Virus record (IMG/VR): IMGVR_UViG_3300017917_003890
Coordinates: 1 to 33,164 of that record
From: a virus
Length of the DNA stretch: 33,164 nucleotides
Strand: one strand, 5' to 3'
The notes under the pieces: generated by a model
What the model was told of the DNA's origin: nothing
Databases searched by the model: none
What the model saw: the letters and a program-made list of their open reading frames with translations, nothing else
Program-made: the position numbers and the translations under genes
In this document: positions 15,996-19,751 of the stretch, one piece after another
How positions within the stretch are numbered: position 1 is the stretch's first letter
How the letters are laid out: the number at the start of each line of letters is the position of its first letter

Positions 15996-16426
15996 ACCAC
16001 AAAATCCTGCTCTAACAGCAGGATTTTGTTTTTTACAGTTTCAATGTTAACAGTGTTCCATAACCCTGGGTGCATGGGCTTGGGAAAGTGGCCACTGTCT
16101 AGCCAAGCATAACCCAAGTGCTCGTGATTGAGCACTGGCACAAACTCTGTTGCTACAAGACATACCCAGGTGTGATATTCAAATGCACCGTCGGCAGAAG
16201 TGAATTTTTCTAAAGGAACTAGTCTAAGATATTCAGGAAAACTACCTAGTTCTTCTATGCACTCACGTTCCATGCCACCCAGCAGTGTTTCCCCTGCTTC
16301 AACTTTGCCGCCGGGCAAACCCCAAGTTCCGGGATTTTTGCTGTCGTTTCTTAGCAAATAAAGATATCTACTAGTTGCAAGGCTTCTAAACCAAACACCT
16401 ACTGCTTTCAAAGCACAAGTCTCCAT
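15992..16426 (-). CDS. Nudix hydrolase (144 aa)
   Basis: With the ATG at 16426 a full Nudix box spans residues 40-62: G40, E46, R54-E55 and E58-E59 are all present (core KVEAGETLLGGMERECIEEL). Positions 56 and 62, usually aliphatic, are Cys and Ser. Nudix enzymes cleave nucleoside diphosphates linked to another group with Mg2+. In phages they act on nucleotide pools, ADP-ribose/NADH-like compounds or RNA caps; the substrate here cannot be told. I prefer this start over an upstream alternative because GGCGGA precedes it and it overlaps the gp15 stop by only 19 nt. The 3' end overlaps the opposing structural gene by 4 nt and contains that gene's terminator hairpin. It is the last gene of the gp14-GIY-gp15-Nudix unit. 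Confidence 0.88.
   Translation of the reverse strand: METCALKAVGVWFRSLATSRYLYLLRNDSKNPGTWGLPGGKVEAGETLLGGMERECIEELGSFPEYLRLVPLEKFTSADGAFEYHTWVCLVATEFVPVLNHEHLGYAWLDSGHFPKPMHPGLWNTVNIETVKNKILLLEQDFVV
15999..16034 (+). terminator. Intrinsic terminator of the fibre cassette
   Basis: A 13-bp perfect stem (15999-16011 with 16017-16029), loop CTAAC, followed by a run of T to 16034. It lies just after the stop of the 1321-aa gene and ends + strand transcription. The same DNA encodes the last dozen codons of the opposing Nudix gene. On the - strand there is no T-run after the hairpin, so it is directional. Confidence 0.88.
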
Positions 16427-17811
16427 GTTCCGCCAGCGTACACACCTTGATAACTCTTGACCCAAGAATCACCGTTCCATTCGTATTGTATACCAGTAGT
16501 CATATTTGTAACATATTGACCACCGTGTTGTAAAGAAGCACGGAAAACTACTTGCCAATATCCATCCCGATACTCGATGATATCGTTTGCACTGGCAATC
16601 AGCGGACGTCCGTTTGCGCCAAGCCAGGCTTCTGCAGGACTTATATTATTGGTGCTACCGGTGTCTTCGGTCAATAGGTAACGTTGCCCCTCAATTGCAC
16701 TGTCCAATCCATTGAGAGGTCCGCTGATCAAAGGATTTATAATTGCATCAATTGGAGCAAGTGTATTTTGAGGAACAGTATCGATATCAACATCAAATAA
16801 CAAAAATCTACTGTCGCTGGGATCAATTGTTATAGTTCCTACTACTTCGGACTCGTCGGCTTGCGTAAGTCTCAATTGACTGACACCCGGACGAAGCACG
16901 CCATATAAATCAATAATAGCTGGCCAAGCCAATACACTGTTGGGAATGGCCTGTGTAGGATCTAGTGTGTCATTTACGGGCTGCTCAAGATCCACAGTTA
17001 AACTGTTGATACATTGAATTCTATTGCCAACAACAATTACTCCGTAATTATAAGGAGTAATGATTTGTCTGGTTCCCAACAACAAGTCGTTGTTGACCAC
17101 AGCATTGACCAAGTCACCCTGTGCATCATACATGGATGCAATGACTCGTTCAACAACTCCCAGCTTCTTGATCTTGGCAGGAGGACTGATCCATATTGGC
17201 AAACTGAATTTAAGTGTGGCAATATCAATTGGATTTTCTGTACCTACAGGAATGGTTCTTGACGACCAAGTAACACTGTCAAGCTCAACTACACTAAGGC
17301 TGGTCCAGTCAATAAAGTTATCGGTGCTTTGAATCTCAAGACTAGGGTTGAACAATGTAAGCATCTGCTCCAACAATTGTAGTTTTTGATTGGTGTTAGA
17401 AGTCCAAATGTCAAGTGTAATACCTAGTTTGTAAGGAACTGGCATCAATCGTTCGATTGTAAATGCAGAACCTTGTGTGGTTTCGTATGTTTCAGTTTCT
17501 GGATCATATGTACGCTGACGTACATTGACTTTGCTAACATGATAAGGTTCTTGCATGCGTGGACGATCATATTCCAAGCTAGAAATATAAAAGGTCATCA
17601 ACGGTGTTGATGGCAAACTGTTGGCTGAGTTTTGCTGTATCACGGTTTGTGCATTACGACTAGCATCGCCGTAGCGTACAGGCACACGCAGAAGTGCAGC
17701 AGCCTCAGTACCATCTGTTTCTCTGCCATATTCCACTTGAAAGTTGGAAACTATTCTAGTAAATTGCAGTAAAAATCGACGTATTTGTTCATCATAAAAA
17801 TAGGCTTGAAT
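16408..17811 (-). CDS. 15: Proximal tail / sheath stabiliser protein gp15, apparent ATT start
   Basis: The N-terminal region (AYFYDEQIRRFLLQFTRIVS then LLRVPVRYGD) matches the order of T4 gp15 (YFYNSSFRR ... IRVPITYAS). TPLMTFYISSLEYDRP and the segment with DWTSLSVVELD continue the similarity. Gp15 caps the sheath and joins tail to head. The protein is about 467 aa against 272 in T4. The extra C-terminal half ends in W-rich beta elements (EWNGDSWVKSY, GGTWRLVL). No ATG lies near the homologous start. GAGGAG (17824-17819) is followed after 7 nt by ATT in frame, exactly where homologs begin (x-AYFYDE). The only other nearby candidate is a GTG at 17850 without a ribosome site. The gene start lies within the 3' end of the GIY-YIG gene. 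Confidence 0.8.
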   Translation of the reverse strand: MQAYFYDEQIRRFLLQFTRIVSNFQVEYGRETDGTEAAALLRVPVRYGDASRNAQTVIQQNSANSLPSTPLMTFYISSLEYDRPRMQEPYHVSKVNVRQRTYDPETETYETTQGSAFTIERLMPVPYKLGITLDIWTSNTNQKLQLLEQMLTLFNPSLEIQSTDNFIDWTSLSVVELDSVTWSSRTIPVGTENPIDIATLKFSLPIWISPPAKIKKLGVVERVIASMYDAQGDLVNAVVNNDLLLGTRQIITPYNYGVIVVGNRIQCINSLTVDLEQPVNDTLDPTQAIPNSVLAWPAIIDLYGVLRPGVSQLRLTQADESEVVGTITIDPSDSRFLLFDVDIDTVPQNTLAPIDAIINPLISGPLNGLDSAIEGQRYLLTEDTGSTNNISPAEAWLGANGRPLIASANDIIEYRDGYWQVVFRASLQHGGQYVTNMTTGIQYEWNGDSWVKSYQGVYAGGTWRLVL

Positions 17812-18334
17812 TTTTATTCTCCTCGGCCAACAGGCGTTTTTGTTCTTCACGCTTTTTACAACGAATTGAATGTGCTAATTTCATTTCTTCGGACCAGCGT
17901 TTTACATGCGGTTTACCTTTTCCGGGATGTGATTTGCCCTTCATTGCACCACCGTCTCTTCTTTTCCAACCCCCGACTTTTGTAGTTGCATGTCGCAGTT
18001 TTTGTGCTGCCTTCATGCGTTCTATGCTTTCGGGACTATGTGTCTTGTTACCGCCTGCTTCTCGGTTGTTATACACTACAATGTCTTGGGTCCTGTAATG
18101 GTTAAGCCAGTATTCTTCCTTGGCGTTTAATTCATCAACGGAACTAGCAGAATCAATTATTTCCCACACAAAAGATTCCTTACCGTATTTTCTAATACTG
18201 TCGTATAAGTAGCTTTTTTTACCACGGCGAGCATCGGCTAAATGAGCGTACCACCGCATCTTGGGGTTTTTTTGAATGGTTTGGCCAATGTAGACTTTTC
18301 CATTTGAAGTGTTTGTTATTTTGTAAATATGCAT
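17792..18334 (-). CDS. GIY-YIG homing endonuclease, free-standing between gp14 and gp15
   Basis: A 180-aa protein. IYKITNTSNGKVYIGQT (residues 3-19) is a GIY-YIG motif. RWYAHLADARRG (about 27-38) supplies the conserved Arg helix and EEYWLNHY (about 72-79) the metal-binding Glu. The C-terminal part, SPESIERMKAAQKLR followed by MKGKSHPGKGKPHVKRW, resembles NUMOD3-type DNA-binding repeats. These enzymes nick or cut a site in related phage genomes that lack the insert, so the element is copied by repair. No intron is evident: gp14 and gp15 are complete on either side. Its last codons overlap the start region of gp15 by 20 nt. A CATAAATA box ends 4 nt before the ATG. Confidence 0.88.
   Translation of the reverse strand: MHIYKITNTSNGKVYIGQTIQKNPKMRWYAHLADARRGKKSYLYDSIRKYGKESFVWEIIDSASSVDELNAKEEYWLNHYRTQDIVVYNNREAGGNKTHSPESIERMKAAQKLRHATTKVGGWKRRDGGAMKGKSHPGKGKPHVKRWSEEMKLAHSIRCKKREEQKRLLAEENKNSSLFL
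17819..17824 (-). promoter_or_regulatory. Shine-Dalgarno site that selects the ATT start of gp15
   Basis: GAGGAG on the - strand, 7 nt ahead of the in-frame ATT at 17811-17809 and inside the last codons of the GIY-YIG gene. Its ideal strength and spacing are the main reason to place the gp15 start there. Confidence 0.7.
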
Positions 18335-18338
18335 CCTT

Positions 18339-18346
18339 TATTTATG
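18339..18346 (-). promoter_or_regulatory. Late-promoter-like CATAAATA before the GIY-YIG gene
   Basis: 7 of 8 matches to TATAAATA, ending only 4 nt before the ATG at 18334. The promoter lies in the loop of a possible stem in read-through RNA (18373-18367 with 18333-18327, ATATGCA with TGCATAT), which would include the start codon. Confidence 0.5.
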
Positions 18347-18374
18347 TGTCGAGGTAGAAAAATTGTTGCATATA

Positions 18375-19751
18375 TTACTCGTTTGGCTGTCCTGGTTGCG
18401 TACCTGGTCTTGGACGCGGCGGCTTAAAACCGTTGTCATCACCGTTGTCTGCACGTGGACGTAATGCTTCGCTGAGACTCTGGCGGCTAGGAATATTGCC
18501 CAGGTCCTTGGTATTAACAGTGTATGTATTGTTGACAAAGCTGGAACGCAAAGTATTGTTGCTAGGCCCGTTGTTGAGATTGGTACGGACTTTGTCCTCA
18601 ACTTTGATCCAACGTTTGCCATCAAATCGGAACAAACGATTTGGGAAATAGTCTAGGCGCAGACAATAATCGCCTTGCGCAGCACCCAGAGGAAAAGCAA
18701 CACCTGTGGTTACCGGCAAGCCATTTGGAGGAATACCGTCGCCAGTTAAGTAACCACTGGTGTAGCCATCGCCGGTGGGGGTCACAGACATTCCACTAAC
18801 AGTAGAATCTACAGTAGGTTGTGTTTCGTCAGCAGTTAATCCAGCAGGATTAGCAGGTTGATCTAATTCAGTAGTGGGCTCAACATAATATGTTGTGGTG
18901 TCATAACCAGACAGCGGAACCTCCACATCTGCTTGTTGTAGGATAGCATCGTTGAGCTGGTAATCTTTGGGTCGTGTGGACATTTGATCGCTGACAGTAG
19001 GAGGATCGTACGGTTGCCAGTAGTTGGTATCTGTGATATCTGTGCCAGCTGGAACGTTTTGTGTAGCCTGGAAATATACATCGCCTTGGTTGACAATGGT
19101 GCCTTCTGGATAAAAATTACCCGGGTCCCAAATGTTTTGTTCAACCATGGGCTTGTCTGTGACTTGTTTGAACTCTTGACTATTGGTCAACGGTGTTGCT
19201 TTGACACGCCAGGTATGCGGCAACCAAGTTTGACTAAAGCCTTCGCTGGCAAATGCTGCATCTTGAATAACGTAATATTTGGGCAGCGGTAGCGGAATAC
19301 TAGGGTCCAATGGATGATAGTCTTTTAGGTTAGGAATCTCTAATACATCACCGTTCATGAGCTTACGACCAATGGTATCAATCATGTCGTTGTAATGAAA
19401 CGTGATAAACAACGTGTCATTGTTTAAAAACAGTCCAAACTGGCTCAAATCAAAGTCGATGTCTTGTTGGTTGTAAACACCTCGTAATGTGTATACATCA
19501 GGATCGTATGAGCGATCGCGAGTTTCTAACAACAGCAAGTCTTGTATGTTCAGTGGATTTTCAGTATCGTAAATTGGCTGTGTTGCATCGCCGTTGCCCG
19601 AAAGAGCCGAGTCTTGACCGCCCGGTTGGGCACCCATGAACTTGTGGATAAAGATATCCAGTCCACCAACTGTGTACATTTCGGATATGGTTCGATCCAA
19701 AAACTGATAGTCTCTTGTTCTATTTGGGCGGTATAAACTTAGGCGTGGCAT
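18375..19751 (-). CDS. 14: Neck protein gp14 (458 aa)
   Basis: I assign gp14 from the order DFDLSQFGLFLNNDTLFITF, GRKLMNGDVLEIPNLKDY, LPKYYVIQDAAFASEGFSQT and WLPHTWRVKATPLTNSQEF, which is the conserved core of T4-type neck proteins, and from its adjacency to gp15. Gp14 with gp13 forms the collar that accepts the tail. It is much longer than T4 gp14 (256 aa). Residues about 209-250 form an insert, NIWDPGNFYPEGTIVNQGDV then YFQATQNVPAG and YWQPYD, laid out like a small chitin-binding type (CBM5/12) fold. The C-terminal 100 residues hold the W-motif RFDGKRWIKVED and a basic Pro/Gly-rich tail. The ATG follows a CATAAATACTA box by 7 nt with no Shine-Dalgarno site. It heads the - strand unit, divergent from the gene at 19827. 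Confidence 0.7.
   Translation of the reverse strand: MPRLSLYRPNRTRDYQFLDRTISEMYTVGGLDIFIHKFMGAQPGGQDSALSGNGDATQPIYDTENPLNIQDLLLLETRDRSYDPDVYTLRGVYNQQDIDFDLSQFGLFLNNDTLFITFHYNDMIDTIGRKLMNGDVLEIPNLKDYHPLDPSIPLPLPKYYVIQDAAFASEGFSQTWLPHTWRVKATPLTNSQEFKQVTDKPMVEQNIWDPGNFYPEGTIVNQGDVYFQATQNVPAGTDITDTNYWQPYDPPTVSDQMSTRPKDYQLNDAILQQADVEVPLSGYDTTTYYVEPTTELDQPANPAGLTADETQPTVDSTVSGMSVTPTGDGYTSGYLTGDGIPPNGLPVTTGVAFPLGAAQGDYCLRLDYFPNRLFRFDGKRWIKVEDKVRTNLNNGPSNNTLRSSFVNNTYTVNTKDLGNIPSRQSLSEALRPRADNGDDNGFKPPRPRPGTQPGQPNE

Follow-up and report, generated by a model that had tools for sequence, protein, structure and literature searches.

Results

A gp15 gene with ATT at the start position

The window analysed here comprises 33,164 nt (IMG/VR virus record IMGVR_UViG_3300017917_003890, positions 1 to 33,164) and carries on its minus strand, in this order, a gp14-like neck gene, a gene for a free-standing GIY-YIG homing endonuclease, gp15 and a NUDIX gene (Table 1). 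The gp15 product was identified by matches to PF16724 (E=1.4e-26) and phrog_11196 (E=4.5e-84), both obtained with the frame read from GTG 17850 as the query, and both the T4-gp15_tss domain and the neck-gene neighbour are present. For the gp14-like gene, no Pfam match was found, and its name follows from its position and from the naming scheme of a preliminary description of this DNA.

Table 1. Features of the gp15 region of the window
Feature	Positions	Strand	Basis or remark
gp15 (tail terminator / sheath stabiliser), frame beginning at the ATT	16408..17811	minus	467 aa; PF16724, phrog_11196, T4 gp15
ATT initiation codon (predicted)	17809..17811	minus	lines up with the homologs' initiator ATG
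Shine-Dalgarno sequence GAGGAG	17819..17824	minus	Glu-Glu codons near the 3' end of the GIY-YIG gene; 7 nt to ATT
GTG, rival standard start	17848..17850	minus	nothing SD-like before the GTG
Free-standing GIY-YIG homing endonuclease, 180 aa	17792..18334	minus	PF01541 E=4.3e-10, phrog_314; no Rfam intron
CATAAATA, T4-type late-promoter-like element before the endonuclease gene	18339..18346	minus	sequence; function inferred
gp15 5' remnant (original start)	18342..18371	minus	ATG CAA CAA TTT TTC TAC (MQQFFY), then CTC GAC ACA TAA
gp14-like neck gene, ATG start	18375..19751	minus	phrog_11591 E=2.1e-81

As the preliminary description had claimed, no ATG lies in frame at the homologous start of gp15; the alignments with relatives and with T4 gp15 confirm that GAGGAG, a 7-nt spacer (AATAAAA, 17818-17812) and an in-frame ATT are found there, with the ATT at the position of the homologs' initiator Met. 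In the alignment with T4 gp15 (PDB 4huh), which is a marginal match (E 0.048), residue 3 of the T4 protein (GYFYN) falls on residue 3 of the window protein (AYFYD), and T4 Met1 corresponds to the ATT codon. The codons that follow the ATT are CAA GCC TAT TTT TAT GAT GAA. Upstream, the gp15 frame runs back to a TAG that lies 22 codons before the ATT, and the sole standard start between the two is GTG 17850, 39 nt 5' of the ATT.

The ATT was also said to lie inside the final codons of the endonuclease gene, and it does, the stop of that gene being at 17794-17792. The 3' end of the endonuclease gene overlaps gp15 by 20 nt with a shifted stop; the ATT lies within the last codons because a TAA, which precedes the ATT in the relatives L002 and L525, became AAA in the window. 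The duplex of GAGGAG with the assumed anti-SD ACCUCCUUA has an energy of -8.9 kcal/mol. The ATT is thus aligned with the homologs' initiator and preceded by a strong SD at normal spacing, as in AUU-initiated bacterial genes. Based on these sequence features, gp15 of the window most likely starts at ATT.

The original gp15 start is found upstream of the endonuclease gene

In the endonuclease-less relative L001, the sequence directly after the gp14 stop reads ATG CAA CAA TTC TTT TAC GAC GAA CAA. The remnant upstream of the endonuclease gene in the window matches this start after the gp14 stop (ATGCAACAATTCTTTTAC in L001); therefore, the old gp15 start is still there, cut after codon six. The preliminary description had considered that the insertion damaged the old start; however, the old ATG is undamaged and lies before the endonuclease gene, 560 nt 5' of the ATT. 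By contrast, its suggestion that the insertion is tied to the ATT start is supported; the last endonuclease codons supply the SD and the old start is stranded. In many relatives, the C-terminal codons of the endonuclease gene, AAG GAG AAY TAA, are the gp15 SD. In total, these sequences indicate that the GIY-YIG gene displaced the gp15 start and did not mutate it.

Among 26 endonuclease-bearing gp15 loci (the window, L002 and 24 others), the 5' remnant is start-bearing in 12, startless in 4 and absent in 10; in six of the latter (L101, L122, L137, L138, L180 and L266), the ATG of the endonuclease gene occupies the former site of the gp15 ATG. Remnant-bearing relatives have CATAAATAAA or a similar sequence at the late-promoter position, usually 3' of the remnant; the T4-type late-promoter consensus is TATAAATA in the available part of PMC3014915. 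Insertion points are at the gp15 ATG or a few codons past it. The presence of the endonuclease at this site is polymorphic among relatives, with at least 23 changes on a gp15 tree. In L088, the stranded remnant upstream of the endonuclease gene begins with ATT, and therefore the ATT allele is older than the insertion there.

ATT and ATC starts recur in gp15

We sampled 80 gp15 loci by a scan for the N-terminal core in which the start codon was not a criterion, using the 80 matches listed. Among these matches, the start is ATG in 63, ATT in 7, TTG in 4, GTG in 3, ATC in 1 and unresolved in 2, i.e. about 1 in 10 relatives among the matches listed (8/80) have ATT or ATC. In a separate set of 80 IMG/VR gp15 homologs, the start is covered in 78, of which 10 have ATT. 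Moreover, a targeted scan for ATH at the gp15 start position gave 114 stretches; after removal of duplicates and of loci near contig ends, the pooled distinct gp15 loci from targeted scans, which were sought by start codon, include 53 with ATT and 19 with ATC, and the ATH scan gave no ATA start among them. Thus, the ATT is not a one-off. In L020, L021 and L182, TAA is found immediately 5' of the ATT. Further relatives (L193-L312) start gp15 with TTG (at least 55 distinct loci) or GTG (at least 25), frequencies that are biased by the search patterns, the BTG scan covering the matches listed. Altogether, the gp15 start codon, which by comparison of sequences would be ATG, ATT, ATC, TTG or GTG, appears unusually unstable among relatives.

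Right after the start, with the pattern-fixed part excluded, pN/pS is 0.16-0.23 for ATT loci versus 0.12-0.21 for ATG loci, and it is 0.217 in 23 ATT/ATC loci without a standard start in the first 30 codons. Purifying selection after ATT is the same as after ATG, which argues that the N-terminus is translated. The window's own record (L081) has a row in the gp15 tree used for the SD comparison and was left out of the counts for SD energy, endonuclease association, pN/pS and gp14.

In seven reference phages, gp15 is annotated from ATG, in one of them probably wrongly: in Vibrio phage 2.275.O (L412:1962-2060), the annotated ATG lies upstream of GGAG-GTG-GCT-AAA, and that GTG is probably the real start. 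The mechanical TTG starts of window ORFs 20990 and 23981 are probably wrong, and internal ATG codons (MTETSDNTL and MALVSPGVEV) fit better. In ATC loci without endonuclease (L083, L091, L106 and others), the ATC lies 2 nt past the gp14 stop, and the SD (GGGAG) lies within the last gp14 codons.

ATT and ATC starts are accompanied by a strong SD

SD strength was calculated as the duplex energy with the same assumed anti-SD, and an SD of -6 kcal/mol or below was scored as strong. ATG gp15 loci (n=139) have a median of -3.0 kcal/mol, and only 8/139 have a strong SD; by contrast, the median is -8.4 at ATT loci (n=53) and -8.2 at ATC loci (n=19), and all 53 and all 19 are strong. From the pattern-biased scans (at least 25 GTG and at least 55 TTG loci), a strong SD was found in 3/25 GTG and 22/55 TTG loci. 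On a gp15 tree of 254 rows, built with the start region excluded, at least 40 changes separate ATT/ATC from other starts; of 29 independent pairs on supported branches, about 25 combine the strong SD with ATT/ATC and 0 show the opposite (p about 6e-8). The changes counted by parsimony may partly be recombination of start cassettes instead of new mutations.

The gp14-like gene follows the same pattern. Among 163 distinct starts at the exact position, 149 are ATG (3 with a strong SD), 12 are ATT (12 strong) and 2 are GTG (2 strong), and the SD energies of ATT and ATG starts differ (Mann-Whitney p 1e-8). ATT thus makes up 12/163 of the gp14-like starts, and 6/87 in loci unselected for the gp15 start. 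The combination of a weak SD with ATT was not found in any gp15 or gp14-like locus scored, and a strong SD with ATG is rare, which is the pattern that would be expected under selection for a moderate initiation rate.

ATT alleles occur with and without the endonuclease

With L081 excluded, 37 ATT and 16 ATC distinct gp15 loci have no detectable endonuclease, and 15 ATT and 3 ATC loci have one. Since ATT alleles exist without any endonuclease, coupling to it is not required. The earlier proposal of dosage control by coupling to the endonuclease thus fails as a general reason with respect to coupling; however, dosage control in the wider sense, in which a weak codon would balance a strong SD, fits the data well.

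The association of endonuclease and ATT in gp15 is modest after correction for phylogeny: of 19 independent pairs, 8.8 favour it and 1.1 oppose it (median p 0.02, range 0.002-0.34). Among the 80 matches listed, with 5 loci with little upstream DNA excluded, ATT/ATC was found in 2/4 versus 6/71 loci (Fisher test, p 0.054). The table of all distinct loci gives 18/25 versus 53/254 (p 3.5e-7), and gives no frequency since loci were sought by start codon. The endonuclease-bearing loci with a standard start have ATG (5) or GTG (2); six ATG loci with an artefactual match to the N-terminus of the L095 query were dropped from these counts.

Two endonuclease-less loci resemble the endonuclease 3' end. 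In L179, 49 nt separate gp14 from the ATT, and 43 of 46 aligned positions are shared with the 46 nt that precede the ATT in the endonuclease-bearing L088; in L114, 23 of 26 nt immediately before the ATT are identical to an endonuclease 3' end. Both have the appearance of a scar left by a deleted endonuclease, with the SD and ATT still in place. Finally, an Asn-Gln N-terminus accompanies ATT/ATC in 13/14 gp15 loci, whether the endonuclease is present or not.

The same layout at other genes

A scan for AAGGAGAAYTAAAATT gave at least 103 distinct places, and among the matches listed, 53/103 have an open frame that extends for at least 60 codons from the ATT. Among the matches listed, many of these ATT frames belong to recognisable families, with partly putative names: gp14-like (8), gp15 (6), ITKRLEELF (5), gp21-like (4) and others. 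ITKRLEELF is the homolog of window gene 29978, of which the window copy has ATG; an endonuclease-like gene lies upstream in 5/5 ITKRLEELF cases among the matches listed. Stranded 5' pieces were found in the ITKRLEELF loci L477 (ATGACGCGAAAATTG) and L453 (ATGACGAAGAAACTCGAA), and L494 has the same layout at another gene. In L470, the endonuclease gene opens with the first codons of the target gene itself (MSAD), and the target gene restarts with ATT AGT GCA GAT. Among the matches listed, an endonuclease or its remnant lies upstream in 16/53 ATT cases (14 tblastn matches, and L470 and L498 judged individually) versus 1/102 ATG controls, a control that was not clade-matched. ATT after a strong SD was also found in L518, L473, L504, L421 and L490, in frames that, from their residues, are presumably amidotransferase-like, SSB-like and QueE-like.

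Tentatively, these cases might represent a class of homing endonucleases (GIY-YIG and HNH) that invade start sites and carry a 3' restart module (AAG GAG AAY TAA and AUU), a reading to which we give slightly less than an even chance. Such an endonuclease would take over or strand the start of an essential late gene, make that gene dependent on it and leave an SD and AUU scar after decay; gp14-like, gp15, gp21-like and several other starts would have been rewritten in this way. If such a class exists, the genes concerned would be mis-started by callers based on ATG, GTG and TTG.

Translation factors in large contigs

A phage initiator tRNA that reads AUU or AUC was considered as a candidate and set aside; G002, a 212 kb contig with an ATT gp15, is without any tRNA. 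Ile(GAU) tRNAs are encoded in G001, G004 and G007. Dense tRNA arrays were found in L662 (30 genes) and L687 (21 tRNAs and a permuted tmRNA with the tag ANDSQFALAA). No phage IF3 was found in 12 large contigs. bS21 is encoded in six of the 12 (G002:C1:111101-111259 and five others) and is not diagnostic because it is also found in contigs with an ATG gp15. In the accessible text of PMC9723584, phage bS21 is proposed to favour phage transcripts late in infection; it could help SD-driven AUU starts, which we regard as a lead only. When four contigs were searched genome-wide for ATT starts with a crude score, most of the output was noise and only gp15 of G004 was clean; because the search overlooked the ATT gp15 genes already known in G001 and G002, it says little on the rarity of ATT per genome.

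Discussion

We consider it probable that gp15 of the window is initiated with fMet at AUU (17811-17809), at a start displaced by the endonuclease gene and with a strong SD as compensation. The GIY-YIG endonuclease gene, together with its own late-promoter-like element, which may direct late transcription, would have been inserted just within the gp15 5' end, stranding the original ATG and five further codons upstream. gp15 would now be translated from a duplicate of its N-terminus that starts with AUU and has its SD in the last codons of the endonuclease gene. AUU would be poorly decoded and the strong SD would compensate, giving a modest output suited to a low-copy tail protein. Weak SD with AUG and strong SD with AUU/AUC would have been exchanged many times in gp14-like, gp15 and other genes, with or without endonuclease, and at least some AUU alleles may be the leftover of a lost endonuclease.

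According to the available part of PMC13009471, S. aureus cvfC1 is initiated at AUU with an extended SD, at a reduced level, and an AUA site in ccpN is conserved with B. subtilis. In what is accessible of PMC2268962, non-canonical starts of E. coli are repressed when additional IF3 is supplied. Based on the S. aureus AUU and E. coli IF3 precedents, and assuming a similar host, we read the gp15 start as a low-output AUU start rescued by its SD.

Among the alternatives, ATT could be an escape from homing: the ATG of a presumed homing site would change to ATT or ATC, making ATT alleles uncuttable with or without an endonuclease, and the strong SD would pay the translational cost. This is consistent with insertion points that coincide with the ATG or follow it by a few codons, with a start codon that has no synonymous option, with the enrichment of ATT/ATC among endonuclease-bearing loci and with ATT haplotypes that differ in the next codons too (the Asn-Gln codons). 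However, in L088 the insertion was into an ATT allele, and the endonuclease-bearing L053, L062, L066 and L322 have ATG; we consider escape unlikely.

Slightly less likely still is obligatory coupling, i.e. an AUU that is usable only by ribosomes that have finished translating the endonuclease or gp14 gene immediately before. Most ATT starts do lie 11-15 nt past the gp14 stop or adjoin the endonuclease stop, but the ATT is distant from an upstream stop in L139 (133 nt) and L119 (upstream ORF not found); moreover, ATG starts are equally close to gp14, and coupling would need no strong SD.

It is improbable that the endonuclease gene resides in a self-splicing intron with the exons MQQFFY and DEQIRRF, the ATT region being intron and the splice joining ATGCAACAATTTTTCTAC to GATGAACAAATA. 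The joined exons would give exactly the L001 N-terminus MQQFFYDEQIRRF; however, the inserted element of ~560 nt is almost wholly endonuclease ORF, and no group I intron RNA core was found with Rfam, which gave no match at E<=1 in window positions 17600-18500 and none at the gathering threshold in 12 sources. Moreover, the start-bearing 5' piece was not found in 14/26 endonuclease-bearing gp15 loci, in which the restart is present nonetheless, and an intron leaves unexplained both why the N-terminus is present in a second, coding version preceded by an SD and why ATT loci without endonuclease exist.

Even less probable is initiation at GTG 17850 within the endonuclease gene, which would add 13 codons. 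This GTG is the only upstream standard start in frame, and L002 has GTG at the same place, but no SD precedes it (the homologous GTG in L002 scores +0.8 kcal/mol), the 13 codons belong to the endonuclease gene, read in a different frame, and are not found in homologs, and 63/72 ATT/ATC gp15 loci have no standard start from the upstream in-frame stop to the ATT/ATC. In many ATT gp15 loci, codon 13-14 is a standard start, at which minor initiation may occur. Finally, the probability of a sequencing or assembly error at 17809 is negligible: the window is one metagenome contig, but the ATT is identical in L002 and L525, error is refuted in the relatives, and chance and error are excluded because ATT recurs (in L002 on another contig and in 53 distinct gp15 loci).

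The variation of the gp15 start among relatives is a natural comparative experiment on the trade-off between SD strength and start codon, and the predicted displacement suggests a route by which homing endonucleases enter an essential gene without killing it. Gene finders restricted to ATG, GTG and TTG would overlook such starts in this group of large environmental phages. For annotation, the rule would be to look for a strong SD with ATT/ATC where the ATG of the homolog is missing, often just past an endonuclease gene.

AUU starts are usually regarded as an oddity confined to a few genes, infC and pcnB among them, and the tail gene 26 of phage T4 has an internal AUU start. Whereas the AUU of T4 gene 26 is internal and gives a shorter product, the AUU predicted here is the only start of the full protein. 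For E. coli infC and pcnB, AUU starts are named in titles cited in PMC13009471 and PMC2268962. As far as these sources are available, the bacterial genes infC, pcnB, cvfC1 and ccpN likewise use AUU or AUA with low efficiency, with an extended SD in S. aureus; unlike in those genes, the starts described here are in phage structural genes, the start codon switches among relatives, and the starts are partly tied to mobile endonucleases.

In the part of the literature searched that was accessible, we found no description of AUU starts at homing-endonuclease junctions in phages. The free-standing Seg and Mob endonucleases of T4-like phages lie between conserved genes, are polymorphic, and some overlap their neighbours (PMC2988022, available part), and the window endonuclease resembles them in all three respects; by contrast, it lies in the 5' end of an essential gene, strands the start and supplies an SD and ATT, which is not in the accessible accounts of Seg and Mob. 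In T4 gene 60, an endonuclease insertion (mobA) splits two genes and translation is unusual (PMC3014915, available part). There, ribosomes bypass the interruption; here, gp15 would be initiated afresh.
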